From assembly GCF_947302755.1 (NCBI RefSeq), contig NZ_CAMYWM010000006.1, positions 1 through 46,262 on the forward strand: DNA of 46,262 nt, given 5' to 3'. Numbering within the stretch: position 1 is the stretch's first letter; every line of letters starts with the position of its first letter. Shown one piece after another: positions 1,081 through 12,182 of the stretch. The stretch comes from an uncultured Anaerovibrio sp. (GTDB lineage Bacteria; Bacillota; Negativicutes; Selenomonadales; Selenomonadaceae). The position numbers were made by a program, and so were the translations under genes. Below the pieces are notes generated by a model that saw nothing but the letters and a program-made list of their open reading frames with translations, searched no databases and had not been told where the DNA came from.

Positions 1081-2181
1081 ATGGGCACTCTGCGAGTTTT
1101 TGTCATCGACAATTCCATAGCCTTTCAGAACGCCTTGGTCCAGGAGCTAAATCATCGTCTGCCTTCTGGCAGCGTTATTGATAATGCCACCAGTCCGGTG
1201 GAGGCACAGAAAAAGCTGACAGCCTTTAAGCCAACAGCTATTATCTTAAATCTGGCTTTGGGCGCTATGATGATAAATCAGGATAAGTTTCTGCCTATGC
1301 TGGTTAAACAACACCCAAATGTTCCTATTATAGTTTATGGCATATCAAATAATGTTTCCCAGACAGCCAAATTCCTTGGAGCTTCTGCTTATTTTAAAAA
1401 GCCTAGTTTCGGTGAGCCCACCCAGCCTTTTTTTGATGGTATTATAAAAGCCCTGCAGGACAACAGTGCCTCTGTCAGATTACCTCAAAAGCAGGCTGGT
1501 GTTGTCACGGCAACAAAAATTGCACCACCTGCACCAGCACGCCAGAGTTCACCTTCGCAAAGCTCCTCTACACCCTCAGGTGAGCCTGTTATCAGCATAC
1601 CAGCTGGGCATGGCACCATCGATCTTATTGCCATTGGAGCCTCCACCGGGGGAACGGAGGCTTTGTCCGCCATTCTCCCCGCCCTAAAGCCCCCACTACC
1701 GGGTATCGTCATTGTGCAGCATATCCCCCCTATGTTTTCACGGCTGTTTTCGGAACGTCTTAATGGGGTATGTGCCCTGACCATAAAAGAGGCTGCTAAC
1801 GGAGATGTGGTAAAACCCAACCATGTGTATATTGCCCCAGGTGGCAAGCACATGTCAATTATTCGTCAAGGAAGTAATTATGTTATCGAGTGCAAAGCCG
1901 GGCCACCAGTACACAGTGTATGCCCTGCCGTGGATATACTCTTTGACAGCGTAGCTGACGTAGCTGGAAATAAGGCTATGGGAGTTATTTTGACGGGTAT
2001 AGGTAAGGATGGCGCAGCAGGCCTTTTAAAAATGCGCAAAAAAGGCTCACCTACCATTGGGCAGGATGCGGCCACCTGCACAGTTTACGGTATGCCAAAG
2101 GTTGCCTTTAGTATGGGGGCAGTACAGCAACAATTGCCTCTTTCCAGCATACCAGAAGCTATACATAAGATTGCCAGATAA
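1081..2181 (+). CDS. cheB: CheB-type protein-glutamate methylesterase with degenerate receiver
   Basis: A two-domain CheB-like protein of 366 aa. Residues 4-125 resemble a response-regulator receiver, but the phospho-acceptor position reads IILNLAL (Asn57 in place of Asp) and the acidic pocket reads VIDNS. Only the lysine in YFKKP remains, so normal activation by CheA phosphotransfer seems lost. After a Ser/Pro-rich linker (about 140-175) comes a full CheB catalytic domain with GASTGG (Ser188), VQHIPP (His214) and GIGKDG (Asp310), the usual Ser-His-Asp triad. The family removes methyl groups from, or deamidates, glutamyl residues on chemoreceptors in the cytoplasm. A strong AAGGAGG precedes the ATG. 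The stop is 12 bases from the next gene, so it heads an operon with two permease-kinase fusions, an unusual context because no CheA, CheR or CheW is nearby. Confidence 0.88.
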   Translation: MGTLRVFVIDNSIAFQNALVQELNHRLPSGSVIDNATSPVEAQKKLTAFKPTAIILNLALGAMMINQDKFLPMLVKQHPNVPIIVYGISNNVSQTAKFLGASAYFKKPSFGEPTQPFFDGIIKALQDNSASVRLPQKQAGVVTATKIAPPAPARQSSPSQSSSTPSGEPVISIPAGHGTIDLIAIGASTGGTEALSAILPALKPPLPGIVIVQHIPPMFSRLFSERLNGVCALTIKEAANGDVVKPNHVYIAPGGKHMSIIRQGSNYVIECKAGPPVHSVCPAVDILFDSVADVAGNKAMGVILTGIGKDGAAGLLKMRKKGSPTIGQDAATCTVYGMPKVAFSMGAVQQQLPLSSIPEAIHKIAR

Positions 2182-2193
2182 AGGAGCAGGACT

Positions 2194-4626
2194 ATGGATA
2201 ACAAAAGACATTTGTCAGCATTGAATATCTGGGGATTGTCCCTTGGCTGTGCCGTAGGCTGGGGTGCTTTTATGGTACCGGCCAATCTTTTTATACCTAC
2301 GGCAGGTCCATTGGGCACCGTCATTTCCATGGGGCTTTCCACTGTACTTCTTCTCATTATTGCCTACAATTTTTCCCAGCTGGTCAACCGATATAATGAC
2401 GATGGGGGAATCGTGGCCTATACACGCAACATATTGGGATATGATCATGCCTTTTTGGCTGGGTGGATTTTAATTATCGCCTACCTGTCTATCATGTGGG
2501 CAAATGCCACCGCCACCATTTTATTATCACGATTTCTGTTTGGGGATGTTCTCGCCTGGGGATATATGTATACCATTGCCGGATTTGACATAAACTTCGG
2601 TGAGATTCTTTTCACATGGATGGTATTTTTCGTATTTGGTCTCTTTTCCTGCTACGGCGATATCCTCCGCAAAATTATAAACACCTTCCTGGCAGTGCTG
2701 TTTTTTGCTACGGTGGTAATGTTATTTGTTGCCCTATACATCTACACACCTACTGATGTTTTTTACCCGCCTTTCCAGAATGTAACCTCCCCGGCTATGC
2801 AGATCTTTAGCATGGTCATGCTGACGCCATGGATGTTCTTTGGTTTTGAGGCCGTCACCCATACAAGGAGCCTTTTTAAATTTTCCACCCGTAGGCTATT
2901 TCCTATTATGGTAGCCTCAATAGTGGCCGGCGGTATTATCTATGTTTTACTGGCCGCCATGGCGGTTATGGCTATTCCATCGGAATTTTCCTCCTGGACC
3001 AGTTACATTGCCCAGAAAAATTCATTGGACGGTATAAAAGGGCTGCCGGTATTTAACAGCGTATACAATGTTTTCGGGCAGGAAGGTCTCGTTATACTGT
3101 TTCTTTCCATTCTTGCAGCCATATCCACCAGCCTTTTGGGTCTATACCGCATTACAGGTACAATTATCCAATATTATGGGGCACACAAAATATTGCCGGA
3201 ATGGTTCAGCAAAGAGGCCAAAGATGGCACCCCACAAAATGGAATTATTTTCGTTATGTTAATTTCCATGCTGATTCCTTTCCTGGGGCGGGTATCGGTA
3301 GTTTGGGTATGCGATGTTATTACTGTTGCAGGTGCAATAGCTTATGGCTATGCTTCCTTGTGCTCCTATATCACCGCCCGGCGGGAGAATGATCAGCGCG
3401 GTAAATGGCTAGGCGGAATTGGCGTGGCTGTTTCCGCCATGTTTTTCTTCTTCCCTCTTATTCCTGGACTGCTGCTAGGTGGCTCACTGGAAACAGAATC
3501 CTATCTTATGTTATCAGGCTGGAGTCTTTTTGGATTTGTTTACTACTGGTATGTATTCAAAAACGACGAACAGCACCGCTTTGGTAACAGTACCTCCATG
3601 TTTATTATGATTCTTTTCCTTAACTTTTTCTCCAGCAGTTTATGGCTCCGTCAAAGGCTGGAGGGCTGGATAAGGATTATTCCTTCCGAATGGGAGTCTA
3701 TTTCCTACAGTGAATTGGCCGCTGACAGCTTAGTACAGGACAGCATGATGCAAATGCTGATGATTTTATTTATTTTGCTGCTAATGGCAGATATATTTAT
3801 CACCATAAAGAGGCGTGAAAAAAAGCTGTTTCAGACCTTTCAGCATCAGCATGAAATCAATCAGGCCAAGAATACCTTCTTGGGTAATCTTTCCCACGAT
3901 ATTCGTATTCCGATGGAAGCAGCTCAAACCTCGGTTCATCTTGCTTTGGAAAATTGCACTATCTGTGCAGGATGTCCAGAAGAAAATTGTCAACGGCGAA
4001 TCCCTGACCGTCTGACGGATTGTTTGGGTAAACTGGATACCCACAGTCAGCTTCTGGTAGGACTAATCGATAATATGCTTAAAAAAGGCAGTATTATGCA
4101 CAATACGCACATGGATAAGATACCTATCGACTCCGTCACGGTGGATTTGCGGGAACTGCTCCAACAGATGAAAGACCTGTTTTCCCTGCAAATGCAGGAA
4201 AAAAACCTCTTTTTTGAAGTTTATCCTGTAGATTTACAGCACCCGATGGTGTTCTGCGACCGAATCCAGCTAAAACGCCTGTTAATCAATTTACTGAGCA
4301 ATGCCTATGAGTATTGCTCAGCCAATGGTGGGGTTATGGTAACTTTAGTGGAAGTTTCATCCATGCCGGAAGGGGAACGAGCCCTCTACGGAGATTATGA
4401 ATTTCATGTTCACGACACCGGTATTAACATCCCACCAATCATAGTAAAAAGCTTGACGGAGGATTATCACCCGGATTATAGCGACATGAGCGGCCTATAT
4501 ATTTCCCGCAGCATTGTACAGTCCATGGGAGGCACTATAGAAGTTGACTCTGCCTCGGAACAGCCTGGCAAGGATATCGTTGTAAAATTCACCCTTCCTA
4601 TCGTAGCAAAGGAGATGTGCTTATGA
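2194..4626 (+). CDS. APC permease-histidine kinase fusion protein 1
   Basis: An 810-residue membrane protein. Residues 1 to about 470 form an APC-family (LeuT-fold) transporter with about 12 hydrophobic helices. The TM1 region reads GCAVGWGAFMVP. A further hydrophobic helix (about 515-535) is followed by a charged coiled-coil linker and a kinase-like module. The H-box is FLGNLSHDIRIPM (His568, phospho-acceptor), the N-box LLINLLSNAYEYC, the G1 box HDTGINI, and a relaxed G2 box is SGLYISRSIV. Most ATP-binding residues are kept, so it may be active. Between H-box and ATPase lies a four-cysteine motif, C588-X2-C-X2-C-X4-C. Permease-kinase fusions such as CbrA (an SLC5-type symporter) sense nutrients; sensing of an amino acid here is inferred. 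The next gene overlaps it by ATGA. No response regulator is adjacent. Confidence 0.85.
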   Translation: MDNKRHLSALNIWGLSLGCAVGWGAFMVPANLFIPTAGPLGTVISMGLSTVLLLIIAYNFSQLVNRYNDDGGIVAYTRNILGYDHAFLAGWILIIAYLSIMWANATATILLSRFLFGDVLAWGYMYTIAGFDINFGEILFTWMVFFVFGLFSCYGDILRKIINTFLAVLFFATVVMLFVALYIYTPTDVFYPPFQNVTSPAMQIFSMVMLTPWMFFGFEAVTHTRSLFKFSTRRLFPIMVASIVAGGIIYVLLAAMAVMAIPSEFSSWTSYIAQKNSLDGIKGLPVFNSVYNVFGQEGLVILFLSILAAISTSLLGLYRITGTIIQYYGAHKILPEWFSKEAKDGTPQNGIIFVMLISMLIPFLGRVSVVWVCDVITVAGAIAYGYASLCSYITARRENDQRGKWLGGIGVAVSAMFFFFPLIPGLLLGGSLETESYLMLSGWSLFGFVYYWYVFKNDEQHRFGNSTSMFIMILFLNFFSSSLWLRQRLEGWIRIIPSEWESISYSELAADSLVQDSMMQMLMILFILLLMADIFITIKRREKKLFQTFQHQHEINQAKNTFLGNLSHDIRIPMEAAQTSVHLALENCTICAGCPEENCQRRIPDRLTDCLGKLDTHSQLLVGLIDNMLKKGSIMHNTHMDKIPIDSVTVDLRELLQQMKDLFSLQMQEKNLFFEVYPVDLQHPMVFCDRIQLKRLLINLLSNAYEYCSANGGVMVTLVEVSSMPEGERALYGDYEFHVHDTGINIPPIIVKSLTEDYHPDYSDMSGLYISRSIVQSMGGTIEVDSASEQPGKDIVVKFTLPIVAKEMCL

Positions 4627-7067
4627 ATACGCCACAGGAAACCAACAAGGGACACCTGCTCACACTCCTTAATGTGTGGGGCCTGTCCTTCGGCTGTGCT
4701 GTCGGTTGGGGAGCTTTCATGCTGCCCGGCAATCTTTTTCTGCCCAACGCAGGCCCAGTAGGAAGTATATTGGCCATTATTCTTGGTGGCCTGATTATGC
4801 TGATTATTGGGTCCAATTTCTGTATGTTGGCTGGAAAAATGCAGGATAGCGGTGGTTTTTTCGCCTATACCCGGGAAATTATGGGTCATGACCATGCTTT
4901 TCTTGCTGGCTGGGCCCTTATCATTACATATCTGTCAATTATGTGGGCCAATGCCACTGCCGTAATTGTACTGGTTCGCTTTACCATTGGGGATGTGCTT
5001 CAATGGGGTTTTCACTACCAAGTGGCCGGTTTTGATGTTTATGGTGGTGAAATCATTGCTACCTGGGGAGTCATTATTCTCTTTGGTTTATTTTCCGCCT
5101 TTGGAGGAGGGATAAAACAGGCCGCCAACACCATACTTGCCTTTATATTAATTGGTGGAATTGTCATCCTATTCTGTGGGGTACTGGCCATGAGTCCACA
5201 GCACGCCAGCTTTTATCCTGCCTTTGACCCTGATATAGGCGGTACGCCATTTTTGCAGTTGCTGAGTATATTGATGGTAGCACCATGGATGTTCTTTGGC
5301 TACGAATCCATAACCCATGGCAGCCAGCAGTTCCACTTCCCAACCCAATACATGTTTCCTCTTATTATTGCAACCGTTGTGTCCACTGTATTGGCTTATT
5401 GCTTACCAATCGCAATTGCCGTTATGGGCATTCCGCCGGAATATCACGGATGGAATGAGTATATCAACAACCTGGGCAACCTGGAGGGGCTCAAAGCATT
5501 ACCTTTGTTTTACAGTGTGAAATCCCTTTTGGGAAGCACGGGTTTAGGCATTTTGACAGCAGCCATCCTCGCCGGTATTCTTACCGGGATTATCGGTCTG
5601 TATCGGGGAGCCTCCTATTTGCTGCAAGCCATGGCTCAGGATAATCTCCTGCCAGCGGCAATAGCCGAAGAAACCAAGGATGGCACTCCCCGCAATGCTA
5701 TTATCTCAATTATGATAGTATCACTGCTTATTCCCCTGCTGGGCCGTACAGCCATTGTGTGGCTGGTGGATGCCATTACCATAAGCGGTTCCATCGCTTA
5801 TGCCTATGTTTCCCTTTGTCGCTACCGGGAAGCCACGGTAAGTAAGGATTCAGCTGGAAAATTCCTTGGTATCACCGGTTTTATTATCTCCATATTTTTC
5901 TTCTTCTGCCCGATAATTCCAAACCTGCTGATTGGCACCACCCTGAATACAGAGTCGTATTTACTGTTGGCGGTGTGGAGCATTATAGGGCTTATCTATT
6001 ACTGGTACATCTTTAAACATGATAAGCATGACCATTTTGGCAAGTCCTTTTCCATGTGCACCGTGTTATTGTTCTTAAATTTCTTCACTTCCTCCTTATG
6101 GCTGCGGCAAATGATGGTAACCAAGCTGCCTCTCCTGCGCCAAAGTGGTTATGCCGCCATCCATGAGGTGCTTAATACCAGCAGTATTATTCAGATTGTA
6201 ATTATCATCCTTATCCTTGTCTTTATGGGTGATATCTTTACTATCATGCGACAACGAGAATATCAGCTAAATATTAAGGTACAGGAAGAACAGCATACCA
6301 GCCAGGTAAGAAATTCCTTCCTTATTGGCATGACCCACGATATTGGGCTGATGATGCAATCCATAATGAGCTATGTGAGGTTGGCCAGAAATACTGGCAA
6401 GGAATATGAGACCATAAAGGGCAATTGTCCCCAGGACAGGTTGGACAGTCTATGGCAGTCCCTTCGCCATACAGATTCCGTAAGCCACTATTTCCTCAAC
6501 CTTGTGAGAGAAATGGGGTTGGTAGAGCAAATAACCTCCAACCATCTGGTATTGTATCCAAGAGCCACAGACATTCACTATAGTCTCCAGCAGGTCAAAA
6601 ACATCTTTGTTATTCAAATGCAGGATAAGAATCTGGATTTTCAGGTTGATTCAAGCCAGCTGGATAATTCCTATGTATATTGTGACGAAAATCGAATCCA
6701 GCGAATGCTGCTAAATCTAATCAGTCTTGCCTACGATGTGAGCCCTATGGGAGGCAAAATATCCGTATTGGTTACTCAAAAGGGCTTTGCTCATCGACGA
6801 TTGGAAAATAAAGGTGAGCTTGGTGTTTCTTCCCGTTTATGTTCGGATTATGAGCTAAAGGTTAATTTTACCGCCGACAAGGAACGCATGGATAAACTAA
6901 GTATGGATCAGCGAATATCCATAACCAAACACCTTGTAAACCTAATGGAGGGAGCATTTAGCATAGAAAGCTCCCCAGCCGCCCAAACAGAGATGAGCAT
7001 TCAACTCACTCTTAATCTAGCAAAACAATCCGCCGTCTCTTACACCAAATACGAAAGTATGGCATAG
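4623..7067 (+). CDS. APC permease-histidine kinase-like fusion protein 2 (degenerate kinase)
   Basis: A paralogue of the preceding gene with the same architecture: an APC permease of about 12 helices (GCAVGWGAFMLPGNLF), an extra helix near residues 520-540, a linker, then a kinase-like tail. The track starts at GTG 4617, but ATG 4623 overlaps the upstream stop (ATGA) and lies 8 bases after GGAG, so I prefer it. The H-box histidine is present (MTHDIGLMM, His572), but the conserved Arg-Thr-Pro is lost. The N-box reads LLNLISLAYDV, without the Mg-binding Asn, and no DxGxG can be found. The four-cysteine motif of protein 1 is absent. The tail is therefore probably not a kinase, but it could be a phospho-acceptor or a heterodimer partner for protein 1. 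A bidirectional terminator follows. Confidence 0.83.
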   Translation: MNTPQETNKGHLLTLLNVWGLSFGCAVGWGAFMLPGNLFLPNAGPVGSILAIILGGLIMLIIGSNFCMLAGKMQDSGGFFAYTREIMGHDHAFLAGWALIITYLSIMWANATAVIVLVRFTIGDVLQWGFHYQVAGFDVYGGEIIATWGVIILFGLFSAFGGGIKQAANTILAFILIGGIVILFCGVLAMSPQHASFYPAFDPDIGGTPFLQLLSILMVAPWMFFGYESITHGSQQFHFPTQYMFPLIIATVVSTVLAYCLPIAIAVMGIPPEYHGWNEYINNLGNLEGLKALPLFYSVKSLLGSTGLGILTAAILAGILTGIIGLYRGASYLLQAMAQDNLLPAAIAEETKDGTPRNAIISIMIVSLLIPLLGRTAIVWLVDAITISGSIAYAYVSLCRYREATVSKDSAGKFLGITGFIISIFFFFCPIIPNLLIGTTLNTESYLLLAVWSIIGLIYYWYIFKHDKHDHFGKSFSMCTVLLFLNFFTSSLWLRQMMVTKLPLLRQSGYAAIHEVLNTSSIIQIVIIILILVFMGDIFTIMRQREYQLNIKVQEEQHTSQVRNSFLIGMTHDIGLMMQSIMSYVRLARNTGKEYETIKGNCPQDRLDSLWQSLRHTDSVSHYFLNLVREMGLVEQITSNHLVLYPRATDIHYSLQQVKNIFVIQMQDKNLDFQVDSSQLDNSYVYCDENRIQRMLLNLISLAYDVSPMGGKISVLVTQKGFAHRRLENKGELGVSSRLCSDYELKVNFTADKERMDKLSMDQRISITKHLVNLMEGAFSIESSPAAQTEMSIQLTLNLAKQSAVSYTKYESMA

Positions 7068-7118
7068 CGAAAATCTTGCCAGAGAGTTTCGCCCATGTAG
7101 TTGTTTTCCTTCCACACG

Positions 7119-7172
7119 AAAAGCTCCCCTGTAACACCATCAAAGGCGTTGCAGGGGAGCTTCTTATTTTGC
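7119..7172. terminator. Bidirectional terminator between converging operons
   Basis: AAGCTCCCCTG (7121-7131) pairs with CAGGGGAGCTT (7152-7162), followed by CTTATTTTG on the plus strand and preceded by a less T-rich flank for the other direction. It lies between the stops of the permease-kinase operon and the convergent chemoreceptor gene. Confidence 0.8.
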
Positions 7173-7202
7173 TTGTTATTTTGTTTAATGCTGGATAATG
7201 GT

Positions 7203-8930
7203 CTATGCCTTAAATTTACCTACAGCAGTCTGTAAGCTGTGTGCCAACTGGGACAGAGCCTCACTTGCGGAAGCAATTTCTTCAGCCGCAGCAGACTGTT
7301 CCTGAGCTGCTGCCGAAACGCTTTCCATATCCGTTGCTACCTGACGGCTGTTTTCAGAAATCTTGTTGGAACGGGTACGAACATTTTCCGTATCGCCGGA
7401 AACAACCTTCAGGTCATCACTCATGCCCTTAGCCTTTTCAGCTACAGCGTCCGAAGCCTCCAAAATTCTGTTAAAGGATTCTTTAAGCTGACCAACAGAA
7501 GCGGTACCTTCTTTAACAGCAATGTTACCCTTTTGCATGGAATCAACGGCATCGATGGTATCACTCTGAATAGCACTGATAAGGTCTGCAATACGCTTGG
7601 CAGAATTTTGTGATTCCTCAGCCAGCTTACGAACTTCATCAGCTACAACGGCAAAGCCACGGCCATGCTCACCTGCTCTGGCAGCCTCAATTGCTGCATT
7701 AAGAGCCAGCAGGTTGGTCTGATCGGCAATACCGGAGATAGCCTCTACAATCTGGCCAATTTCCTGAGAACGCTTGCCCAGCTTATCTACAGTCATGGAG
7801 GAGCTGTTAACTATTTCTTCCACGCTGACAATCTTATTTACTGCATCCTCAATGGCATCGCTGCCTTCCTGAGCCTGCTTGTGGGAATCCAATACATTTG
7901 CTGTCACATCACTGGCCGTATGATTAAGATTATCAATGGAGTGCATTGTATTATCAATGGATTCCATGGCCATTTCAACATCGCTCTGCTGCTCAATAAC
8001 AGCACTAGCCGAACTGCTTACACGTTGAGCCACCTGCTCGGAGGCCAATGCACACTGGTGAGCTGTAGCCGTAAGCTCCTGGGAGGAAGCTGCCAGCTGC
8101 TCCGTGGAACCAATAACCTTCTGTATAAGATTATTAACCGTGTTACGCATATCCCGAACTGCAACTTCCATGTGGCCGAACTCATCACCACGTTCTACTT
8201 CACCGATAAGGCCATCATTGCGGAAATCACCATTGGATAACTTATCACAAACCCGGATAACCAAATTCAATGGTCCGGTAATCTGGGAAGTAATAAAGGC
8301 AATGAAAACCGTCAGGACAACGATAATAACCACGCAGGTAATAATCATGTTGCGAATGGCTGCCTTGACTCCCTCTTCTCCTTGTACCAGAGCTTCCTCA
8401 GCCTTTTCCATGTTCAGCTTCTGAACTTCCCCCAAATCGTTACTCATGCTGACTGCCAATGGCATTACTTCTTTTTCATAAAAGTCCATAACTGCCCGGC
8501 GGCTCGTCTCATCGGTAACCTGCATTTTCATCAATTCGCCAGACCTTGCTTTAAAGTTCTCATAGTCGCTCCGCACCTTGGCCGCCATGGAGGCACGCTG
8601 CGGGTGATTTGAGTTCAGGCGCTCATATTCCTGCATGCACTGTTCCGACTCTTCAATATTGCTATTATACTTGGTAATGCGATCCTGCCTTCTGGTAGGG
8701 TCGAGGGTAAAAGGCATCAACGACGCCTGAACCTGCATTACACGAGTATCATTTCGCACCCGCGCGCAGTAGAAGATACCCATGGTATGCTCTCTATAGA
8801 GTGCTTCCATATCTTCCTGAGCAGAACGTAAATACACATACCCCAGTATGCCTACAAATACCGTCGCCACAAAGGCCAGCGCCCCAATTAGAGCCAACTT
8901 GTACTTTACACCAATATCCTTAAAACTCAT
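7203..8930 (-). CDS. Methyl-accepting chemotaxis protein
   Basis: A 575-residue transmembrane chemoreceptor. It has an N-terminal helix (about 11-31), a periplasmic four-helix-bundle sensor (about 32-190), a second helix (about 191-213) and a HAMP domain (about 214-268). The cytoplasmic signalling helices carry the highly conserved hairpin tip [20 protein letters not shown] followed by [18 protein letters not shown]. The family controls CheA through CheW. Sensor domains of this type bind small molecules, but the ligand cannot be read here. There is no C-terminal CheR/CheB-tethering pentapeptide. GGGGGTGT lies 6-8 bases before the ATG. It is transcribed alone and converges on the cheB operon, whose methylesterase could act on it. 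Confidence 0.95.
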
Positions 8931-9076
8931 TCATGACACCCCCTATATATTCATTCGTCCTTTTAACTATATCCGCATCTAAAAAATCTAACGGTACAGG
9001 ATATATATGGACTTATTTCTACATTAATATAAAAATTCCTTTTCAAATATGAATTTTTTCTGAAAAGCTTCCATCT

Positions 9077-12058
9077 CTATCCTAATATTTCCTGCAGGGT
9101 GGCAAGGGTCTTCTCCACATCAATAGGTTTTGCCAAATGAGCATTCATTCCCACGGCAAAGGCCTTTTCCTGATCCTCCTTGAAAGCATTGGCCGTCAGG
9201 GCCACTATCGGAATCTTCGAACGGCCACCATCCGCCAGTCGCCGTATTTTCTCAGTGGCACCGTAGCCATCCAGATTTGGCATCTGAATATCCATAAGAA
9301 TCAGGTCATAATACCCTATATCGTGCTTCATCAGCATATTGAAGCATTCAATACCATCCACTGCCCTTTCCACCTCAAAGCCGGCGTCCTCCAAAACAAA
9401 GGTGGCAATTTCTGCGTTAAGGTCGTTATCCTCTGCCATGAGAATACGCTTTCCGCTAAAGTCAGCCTTTTCCTCATCGTTTTGGTCATTTTCTTCCGAC
9501 GACGGCAGCTCACCTATACGGTGTGGTGTAGAAATAATAATTTCTGTACCCACTCCCAGCTCACTATTGACATTAATAGTGCCCCTCATTTTACCCACAA
9601 GGGACTTAACTATGGCCATGCCAAGACCCGTTCCCTGGATACCGCTCTGGGTACTGTTACGATCCCGGGAGAATTGTTCAAAGATATGAGTGACGAATTC
9701 CTTGGACATACCAATACCAGTATCCTGTACCCGGATTTCCAAAATACACTCCCCATCGGTATCTCCCGGCAACTCCTTAACCGTAACATAGATATTTCCC
9801 CCCTCCGGGGTATATTTCACCGCATTGCTGATAACATTCATTACCACCTCTGACATATGAGTACCATCAATGTACAAAAATCGGTGCTGTATATCAAAGG
9901 ATGATGTCAGGGTGAGATTCTTCTTCCTCATATCGCCCTCAAACATTATCAGGCAGGAATCAAACAGCTCATTGGCATCAGTTATTTCCTCTTCAATGAA
10001 CATATTTTTGTTTTCAATCCGGGCCATTTCCAAAATACTGTTCAAAATATCCAATAATTGATGGCTGGCATTTTTTATCTTTTGCCGGTATTCAGTATTT
10101 TTGGCTATATTGTCCGGATCCCGTTCCCCCAGCTCCGTGAAGCCTATTATGGCATTTAACGGAGTACGGATATCGTGGCTCATGTTGAACAGGAAGGTAG
10201 ACTTGGCTTTATTGGCTGCCTCAGCCGCCTCTATGGACTCCTCCAGCTTGGTCTGCTGCTCCTGTAGCAGGGCATTTAAAGCCTTGGTTTCCATCAGATG
10301 AGTCTCTGTCTCAGAAGCGTACTCCTCAAGGCGGGCCTGCCGATCCTGTAATTCATTATTAAGAACGGAAATCTCCTCCACCTTGTCAGACAATTCCATA
10401 CGATGAGCCTCAGACTCTGCAAGATGTTCCCTGTTTTTCCGATTTTCCCGTATAACAAAGTAGAAAATCACCGAAAAGAACAACATCAGTCCCAATAACG
10501 GAACCCATATATTATTTTTGAAGAAATTTAGTAAAGATACCTCATGCTTTGGCATGTAGCTGTAAGCATGGGTCAGGGCAAAATCATCATCTATCAGACT
10601 AAGTCCATGGTTTATGAGCCGAATAATTTCCGGATTTGTAGTAAGCCCGGCAAAGCCAAGATCCACATCATTGGTCAGCTGAGCTGTATTTAAATCCTTG
10701 TAGCTTTCCTTCCGCCGCAGCAGATACTCTGTTCTGAGCTCACTGACGATAATAACATCTGCCTCCCCCCGTTTAACGGCATCCATACAGTCATCAATAT
10801 CATCAAAATACAGGACTTCATTCTTAGGATAAAATAATTTTCTGAATGGATCCATGATACCATTGCGGCGGGATATGGCAATCCGGGCCCGGCTCATATC
10901 AGGGTAGGCTCCGGCATATAAAATATTAAAATTGGAATTTACCACCGGCTCACTGGTGATAATATCATGCTGCTCAGAAATCCAGGCATTGGACAAACCA
11001 GGAAAAACAACATCCACTTCCTGATTGTGCAGGGCATTTATTAATTCCTCGGCTGTAGAATAGCCCACATAGTCTATCTTAATATCCGCATCTCCGAGAA
11101 CTCTGAATATCTCCGGCACAATGTCCGTAATAACGCCTACAACATTACCGCTTTCATCTTTGGCACTGTACGGAAGAAATGCCGTTAAATACCCAACCTT
11201 AAAGGTATCATGCTCATCCAGCCATTTGCGCTCATTCGGCAGCAGGGTGGTAGTCAGAATTGATTTTTTGAACCATTTTCTGGACAGGTCATTTATAAAA
11301 TGGGGATTTTCCCGCTTCATCAGCTCCTGGGATTTGTTTAAATCCTCCAAAATATCCGGCCGGGCCTTATTTGCCACCAGATAATAAGCACTGGAGCCCA
11401 CGTCGGCAAACACTTCAATCCCCACATCGGGGGAGGTACCGTCACTTTCAGCCATCATAATATCAATTTGTCCGTCAATAATGGCCTCGTCCCGTTCCTT
11501 TATGTCACCGAACTCTACCAGCTGAGCGCTTAGATTATGCTCCGCCAGATACTGATTTACCACACCAACCTGTGCCCCTTTTAAGACACCAATTCTCTTG
11601 CCATTTATGGTAGAAAGCTCCGAAGTAATCTGGCTGTTGGAGGACAGCTTTAGGAAATAATACTTGGTTTCCCCCATGGCATCCCGGGGATAGCTGATGA
11701 CGGAAGCCCGCTCCGGCGTGTAGGCCAACCCCGCCAACAGGTCTATTTCCCCGTTTAGCAACTTACTATATAGCTTGCCATAAGAACCGTACACGTACTC
11801 ATATTTCCAGTTGTTGTATAATTTCAGACGCTGCAAATAATCATAGGCATAGCCGTCCTTGGTCATATCAACCGTCGCCCCAATCTGGAATGGCGGATTT
11901 TCATAATAACCTATACGGACGATTTTTTCATTATTGGCCACCGCCGGTGTAACAGGCATACCCTTAAATACCCCCAGCAAGCAGGCCAATAGGGTAATGA
12001 GGCAAAAGAAATTTTTAAGATTAATATATTTAAAATACATTCTATGCTTATAACGCAT
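9077..12058 (-). CDS. Hybrid sensor histidine kinase with two SBP_bac_3 sensor domains
   Basis: A BvgS/EvgS-like unorthodox sensor. The track ORF begins at 12091, but ATG 12058 (MRYKHRMYF) follows GGGGGGC at good spacing and starts a plausible signal anchor, so I use it. Domains in order (numbered from this start): N-terminal hydrophobic segment; two tandem family-3 solute-binding Venus-flytrap domains (about 40-265 and 275-510); one membrane helix (about 518-538, VPLLGLMLFFSVIFYFVI); a coiled coil; HisKA with FNMSHDIRTPLNAI; HATPase with VISNAVKY, DTGIGM and GTGLGM; and a C-terminal receiver with AEDND, LILMDIQMP and the LAKP lysine. There is no C-terminal Hpt domain, unlike BvgS, so a separate phosphotransfer protein is expected. 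Family-3 domains usually bind amino acids or similar small ligands. No output regulator is nearby. Confidence 0.93.
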   Translation of the reverse strand: MRYKHRMYFKYINLKNFFCLITLLACLLGVFKGMPVTPAVANNEKIVRIGYYENPPFQIGATVDMTKDGYAYDYLQRLKLYNNWKYEYVYGSYGKLYSKLLNGEIDLLAGLAYTPERASVISYPRDAMGETKYYFLKLSSNSQITSELSTINGKRIGVLKGAQVGVVNQYLAEHNLSAQLVEFGDIKERDEAIIDGQIDIMMAESDGTSPDVGIEVFADVGSSAYYLVANKARPDILEDLNKSQELMKRENPHFINDLSRKWFKKSILTTTLLPNERKWLDEHDTFKVGYLTAFLPYSAKDESGNVVGVITDIVPEIFRVLGDADIKIDYVGYSTAEELINALHNQEVDVVFPGLSNAWISEQHDIITSEPVVNSNFNILYAGAYPDMSRARIAISRRNGIMDPFRKLFYPKNEVLYFDDIDDCMDAVKRGEADVIIVSELRTEYLLRRKESYKDLNTAQLTNDVDLGFAGLTTNPEIIRLINHGLSLIDDDFALTHAYSYMPKHEVSLLNFFKNNIWVPLLGLMLFFSVIFYFVIRENRKNREHLAESEAHRMELSDKVEEISVLNNELQDRQARLEEYASETETHLMETKALNALLQEQQTKLEESIEAAEAANKAKSTFLFNMSHDIRTPLNAIIGFTELGERDPDNIAKNTEYRQKIKNASHQLLDILNSILEMARIENKNMFIEEEITDANELFDSCLIMFEGDMRKKNLTLTSSFDIQHRFLYIDGTHMSEVVMNVISNAVKYTPEGGNIYVTVKELPGDTDGECILEIRVQDTGIGMSKEFVTHIFEQFSRDRNSTQSGIQGTGLGMAIVKSLVGKMRGTINVNSELGVGTEIIISTPHRIGELPSSEENDQNDEEKADFSGKRILMAEDNDLNAEIATFVLEDAGFEVERAVDGIECFNMLMKHDIGYYDLILMDIQMPNLDGYGATEKIRRLADGGRSKIPIVALTANAFKEDQEKAFAVGMNAHLAKPIDVEKTLATLQEILG

Positions 12059-12182
12059 TTTACTGCCCCCCTGCATAATGTGAAAACCCATAAAATAACC
12101 TATTTTAATTATTCTCCACCTTGCCCTGCAATTCCTGCATTTTATGAATAAATTATTATTTTTTAGCCTTTCAGCCCCACAC

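Follow-up and report, generated by a model that had tools for sequence, protein, structure and literature searches.

Two adjacent genes of an uncultured Anaerovibrio sp. each join an amino-acid permease to a histidine kinase in a single polypeptide, raising the question of whether such proteins transport, signal, or act together as one receptor. They lie in a stretch of 46,262 nucleotides (contig NZ_CAMYWM010000006.1), which is called the window here. Gene A (2194–4626, forward strand) encodes 810 residues, in which an APC permease is followed by a TM13/TM14 hairpin, a DHp domain and a catalytic ATP-binding (CA) domain. Gene B (4623–7067, forward strand) encodes a paralogous APC permease with its own TM13/TM14 and DHp parts and a degenerate CA domain, for a length of 814 residues from the ATG at 4623, or 816 from a GTG at 4617. 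The ATG is the more likely start, given the GGAG ribosome-binding site at 4611–4614 (forward strand, within the 3' end of A) and the ATGA overlap with the stop codon of A. The AAGGAG ribosome-binding site of A (2181–2186, forward strand) shares one base with the stop codon of an upstream CheB-like gene and, together with the GGAG/ATGA junction between A and B, indicates one translationally coupled operon, CheB-A-B. A first-pass annotation had proposed tandem APC permease-histidine kinase fusions forming a paralogous pair in one operon. Both points are confirmed, as the two uninterrupted reading frames lie in tandem and in the same direction at these coordinates, overlap translationally, and have permease and kinase matches in Pfam.

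The permease family AA_permease_2 (PF13520, cut-off 27 bits) is matched at 61 bits by A and at 71.5 bits by B, which also matches AA_permease at 85 bits; in both proteins the PF13520 match exceeds the curated cut-off and spans the whole 12-TM core. Searched against Pfam at E values up to 1, the membrane parts matched only AA_permease families and gave no SLC5/SSF match, and membership in the CbrA family was rejected on this ground. AlphaFold models of A and B (monomers only, moderate confidence, pLDDT 77) have a LeuT-type APC fold, with AdiC, GkApcT and other APC transporters as the best PDB matches of the core and Foldseek target TM-scores against AdiC of 0.85 for A and 0.83 for B; the kinase parts match HK853, YycG and RetS. 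The modelled cores have 12 helices, matching APC transporters, in agreement with the earlier view that both proteins keep such a transporter. In A, the permease module comprises residues 1–462 (2194–3579, forward strand), with the motifs GCAVGWGAF in TM1, WANATA in TM3 and GFEAVTH in TM6. The TM5 lysine of proton-coupled members (GkApcT position) is absent from A and B; it is uninformative as a mark of lost transport, since the stand-alone relatives lack it too.

Beyond this core a single extra helix had been described, which the AlphaFold model of A corrects to two: TM13 (residues 467–498) and a continuous helix of about 88 residues (505–592) that holds TM14, DHp helix 1 and the phospho-acceptor His568 (together 3592–3969, forward strand). 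Between TM14 and DHp no Pfam domain was found, in a library that may hold no STAC model, and the model has one unbroken helix. Stand-alone relatives end near profile position 462–476, before the hairpin, and signalling fusions mostly reach 507–551, which marks the TM13/TM14 hairpin as an added transmission part.

Both Anaerovibrio and Selenomonas carry the fused pair, in records from isolates as well as from MAGs and with identities from 99% down to about 40%; an assembly artefact or a chance fusion can therefore be rejected. Nearly identical loci are present in A. lipolyticus DSM 3074 and one MAG, and the genome of the window is accordingly of A. lipolyticus type. Within the genus the pair is unevenly distributed, being present in 6 of the 16 genomes that represent it in the family sample. 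The loci fall into two types, type 1 comprising the window, other Anaerovibrio and most S. ruminantium, and type 2 represented by L023, L025, L026, L027 and L082. Every complete locus of either type carries both genes in tandem, and the frames are open in all of them. According to a permease-domain tree, the duplication that gave rise to A and B predates the divergence of type 1 from type 2.

HATPase_c scores are about 92 bits in one hybrid relative, 74 and 62 bits in type-2 A and B, and 52 and 17 bits in A and B of the window, the last being below the Pfam cut-off of 26.4; domain-database searches thus gave AA_permease-family matches for both proteins of the window and HATPase_c above cut-off in A only. 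HisKA is matched by A at 23.5 bits, just under its cut-off, and B has no HisKA match in Pfam. The H-box previously noted in the C-terminal module of both proteins stands, its His-Asp being invariant in the alignments of A and B (His568 within SHD at 3895–3897 of the window; the histidine of B within THD at 6336–6338; both forward strand). The CA domain of A (4258–4599, forward strand) has an intact N-box (NLLSNA) and G1 Asp and has lost the second G1 Gly; its G1/G2 boxes are also eroded (DxGxN). In the CA domain of B (6684–7013, forward strand) the N-box Asn is replaced by Leu (NLISLAY) and G1 is lost. A motif table gave the same picture across loci: type-1 A proteins retain the H-box, N-box and G1 Asp, and type-1 B proteins have lost the Mg-binding N-box Asn in every locus and mostly also the G1 box; N-box and G1 Asp are retained in type-2 A and B, and the hybrid relatives are canonical. 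Nevertheless, purifying selection acts on the CA domain of B (pN/pS of 0.23, 0.22 and 0.12 in three Selenomonas ortholog pairs), and ratios are well below 1 for all domains, DHp and CA included. Read from these motifs, B in the locus type of the window is a pseudokinase beside kinase A, whose own kinase activity is unproven. Because B lacks ATP-binding residues and keeps its phospho-acceptor His, a heteromeric unit is favoured, and the natural reading is that A would supply ATP binding and B a second permease and phospho-acceptor. The initial suggestion of a heteromeric nutrient sensor thereby gains support for its heteromeric part; the sensing of a nutrient, or of amino-acid flux, belongs to the proposed mechanism discussed below.

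The DHp hairpin of A also carries an insert of four cysteines (C588-x2-C591-x2-C594-x4-C599; 3955–3990, forward strand), and is about 13–16 residues longer than that of most hybrids. All four cysteines are present in each of the distinct type-1 A sequences in the alignment; type-1 B proteins have at most stray cysteines at this site, and type-2 proteins keep part of it. The insert of A could be a metal or cluster site. Certain hybrids and two further histidine kinases (HKs) have Cys4-like inserts too, and the idea that they are specific to APC fusions was rejected because they occur in HKs of other architecture. CxxC-type Cys4 DHp inserts occur in several Selenomonadaceae HKs of varied architecture, in L062, L069, L090 and L093 as well as L151 and L152; in these proteins the cysteines may form a metal, Fe-S or redox site adjoining the phospho-acceptor helix. 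We found no direct precedent for DHp cysteines in the literature.

A profile built on the permease alone was searched in three families and in a phylum-wide sample. Selenomonadaceae gave matches in 73 of 151 genomes, mainly with long open reading frames; the other two families gave matches in 5 of 59 genomes (f136, also of the Negativicutes) and in 9 of 120 (f83, which shares the phylum). Across the phylum only 9 of 300 genomes had matches, mostly stand-alone permeases, and a plasmid collection gave partial matches only and no fused forms. The common permease module consists of 12 helices and the added two-helix hairpin, with TM1 usually GWGAF. Pfam and direct reading placed it before a kinase and receiver (APC-HK-REC: L054, L060, L066, L130, L131 and L134), before a kinase and two receivers with a separate adjoining Hpt gene (APC-HK-REC-REC: L127), and before c-di-GMP outputs (APC-GGDEF: a tandem pair in L064 at 2956–9160, and L065 at 5190–7859; APC-PAS-GGDEF: L129 at 5517–9107; APC-GGDEF-REC-EAL: L128 at 2817–7187). 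Two loci of f136 (L138 and L140), read directly from the sequence and not by Pfam, encode an APC-HK-REC protein next to an APC protein whose tail is of GGDEF type; the same kind of reading makes L138:3932–6211 an APC module with a GGDEF output.

In the permease-domain tree, which was made with a quick method and has some long branches, the signalling fusions grouped in a single clade (SH-aLRT 99), to which stand-alone GWGAF permeases were the nearest outgroup. The tandem clade was monophyletic (97) and nested among the HK-REC hybrids, one of which (L083) was its sister, and the GGDEF outputs implied at least two changes on the tree. The signalling forms have WAN-type TM3 and GFE-type TM6 motifs, in contrast to PLN/PMN and GFD-IPQ in the stand-alone forms. 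Judged by domain content and phylogeny, fusions of APC permeases to signalling parts make up a family of considerable size with outputs of several types, and the A/B pair is a specialised branch of it.

Some members and relatives of this family have distinctive neighbours. Stand-alone GWG/GFG permeases lie beside genes for sulfoacetaldehyde acetyltransferase (Xsc), omega-aminotransferase or alanine dehydrogenase (L075, L076, L077 and L079), which suggests uptake of taurine or omega-amino acids by these cousins; they are too distant for the substrate of A and B to be read from their neighbours, and this route was rejected. A small rhodanese-like gene follows many APC-HK-REC genes (identified by Pfam in L054 only, at 9167–9586), with similar small ORFs, recognised by similar sequence ends, in L056, L057, L061, L063, L089 and L090. 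One APC-HK-REC subgroup adjoins a PiT-like transporter gene, so named from its sequence (L066:3995–4990, L091:3506–4501 and L092:9416–10420). Outside the signalling clade, an APC-type permease is fused to an iron-containing alcohol dehydrogenase (L136:6490–9153).

The first gene of the operon (1081–2181, forward strand) encodes a CheB-like methylesterase with a pseudo-receiver (REC about 1096–1404, esterase about 1627–2163), scoring 206 bits for CheB_methylest and 24 bits, below cut-off, for Response_reg. In all aligned copies the phospho-acceptor Asp of the receiver is replaced by Asn (NLALG/NFALG) and the esterase Ser-His-Asp is kept. This Asn excludes phosphorylation at the usual site, whether by the pair or by CheA; a second, standard CheB is encoded beside CheA in the che operon. 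The lineage with Asn for Asp and an intact triad also includes copies in L105 and L106. A co-directional CheB gene lies just upstream of A in every complete type-1 locus examined; it is missing from the five type-2 loci, and the type-2 genomes G053 and G066 hold a homologous pseudo-receiver CheB elsewhere. Downstream, a methyl-accepting chemotaxis protein gene (7203–8930, reverse strand; MCPsignal, HAMP and 4HB_MCP_1) is convergent with the operon in the window and in most Selenomonas loci, and is possibly linked to the pair in function. No response regulator gene lies beside the pair. That the operon CheB is tied to adaptation through binding is a guess, and a link of the pair to CheB and chemotaxis is doubtful. 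Further along the window (9077–12091), convergent with the operon, is a gene for a hybrid kinase with periplasmic SBP_bac_3, HisKA, HATPase_c and REC domains, which is present in several Anaerovibrio loci too.

From the fusion and the swapping of output domains we infer ligand-dependent signalling through a transporter fold, and consider it likely that A and B are signalling receptors with an APC input. They might instead be essentially amino-acid transporters with a vestigial kinase part, or a regulatory one that gates transport, as the retained 12-helix APC fold, with AdiC and GkApcT as nearest folds, would allow and as the greater erosion of CA domains in the tandem clade than in the hybrids might suggest. 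Purifying selection on DHp and CA, the fusion of the same module to outputs as unrelated as GGDEF and EAL, and the TM3 and TM6 differences from stand-alone permeases all argue against this, and we regard it as quite improbable. A pair on its way to pseudogenes, its kinase part decaying and functionless, would account for the loss of N-box and G1 box in B and of the second G1 Gly in A; it is disfavoured to the point of being hardly credible, given that every complete locus, across many genomes, has open frames and that pN/pS lies well below 1.

If both proteins signal, each could do so on its own as a homodimeric sensor kinase like CbrA, with B still active despite its divergent boxes or serving as a phosphatase only. 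The H-box His-Asp is kept in each, and type-2 B proteins retain both N-box and G1 box, so that the ancestral pair probably consisted of two active kinases. However, every type-1 B lacks the N-box Asn, B of the window falls under the HATPase_c cut-off, and the genes are in tandem in all complete loci of both types, which makes separate homodimers unlikely. As an overall explanation we prefer a heteromeric nutrient transceptor made of kinase A and pseudokinase B, which we hold to be reasonably probable; a functional A:B heterodimer, taken as a claim of its own, is tentative, its chances being a little short of even. Against this explanation stand the lack of a response regulator gene beside the pair, the eroded G1/G2 boxes of A and the missing CheB gene in the type-2 loci.

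In such a transceptor, the APC (LeuT-fold) amino-acid-permease domain of each subunit would be the sensory input, the TM13–TM14 hairpin and the one continuous helix the transmission element, and the HisKA-type kinase core the output. An amino-acid-like ligand would shift the conformation of the APC domain, whether or not net transport takes place, and this change would displace TM14 and the DHp helix. If A and B form a heterodimer, the CA domain of A may phosphorylate the His of B, or the permease of B may only tune A, and the phosphoryl group would pass to a response regulator encoded elsewhere. Through the co-transcribed CheB, the system might be tied to chemotactic adaptation independently of phosphorylation by CheA. 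A broader proposal treats the GWG-type APC domain as a sensory module of general use in bacteria, which would descend from an amino-acid permease and be placed before kinase, hybrid kinase or c-di-GMP outputs. In Anaerovibrio and Selenomonas it would have become a kinase/pseudokinase heterodimer with a Cys4 metal or redox site in the DHp hairpin, coupled to a phosphorylation-independent CheB and so to chemotaxis. In this full form the proposal is speculative and unlikely to hold.

Closest in kind to A and B are CbrA (SLC5-STAC-PAS-HK) and Ks-Amt5 (Amt-HK). CbrA and CrbS likewise are single polypeptides in which a transporter of the LeuT fold is joined to a histidine kinase, and CbrA, with 13 TM helices, serves in both amino-acid uptake and signalling (PMC13022988, PMC7096432, PMC5715377). 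Their transporter is of the SLC5/SSF family, in contrast to the APC module of A and B. Moreover, STAC and PAS domains link the transporter to DHp in CbrA, whereas in the model of A a continuous helix would run from TM14 into DHp, and CbrA comes from one gene, with CbrB as its regulator, rather than forming a kinase/pseudokinase pair. By analogy, the mechanism of A and B may resemble that of CbrA. In Ks-Amt5, too, a histidine kinase is fused to a transporter domain that acts as the sensor; the fold is Amt in place of APC, and ammonium is sensed (PMC5764959). Closest in modular use are the 5TMR/S-component-fold kinases, in which a transporter-related input precedes HK, REC, GGDEF, EAL and other outputs, a case termed the first in prokaryotes by its authors (PMC11109136). 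The link of 5TMR to ECF S-components is by structure, whereas the kinship of A and B with APC permeases is visible in sequence, with Pfam scores above cut-offs. AdiC, GkApcT and the CAT/SLC7 transporters match the membrane part of A and B in fold and sequence but are stand-alone; TM1 has GTG in GkApcT and GWG in A and B, and TM13–TM14 and the kinase are additional in the latter. In yeast, the APC-type permease homolog Ssy1 is an amino-acid receptor that signals via a protease cascade and has no kinase fusion. Ssy1 is mentioned in reviews such as PMC5890159.

We found no published description of APC or AA_permease fusions to kinases or GGDEF domains in the open-access literature, a scope that leaves most subscription journals outside, and this absence is weak evidence of novelty. 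Database annotation of these architectures probably exists, and the family is apparently undescribed. Transporter-kinase fusions have been described as rare, with CbrA and Ks-Amt5 as examples, and how readily bacteria convert a transporter fold into a receptor is an open question. With at least five output architectures behind one APC module, a stand-alone outgroup and the TM3 and TM6 differences, the transition from transporter to receptor becomes testable. With the kinase/pseudokinase pair, nature provides a test case for trans-phosphorylation within a transceptor, found in a genus common in the rumen, and the family as a whole would mean that bacteria reuse the APC transporter fold as a sensing front end for several signalling outputs.
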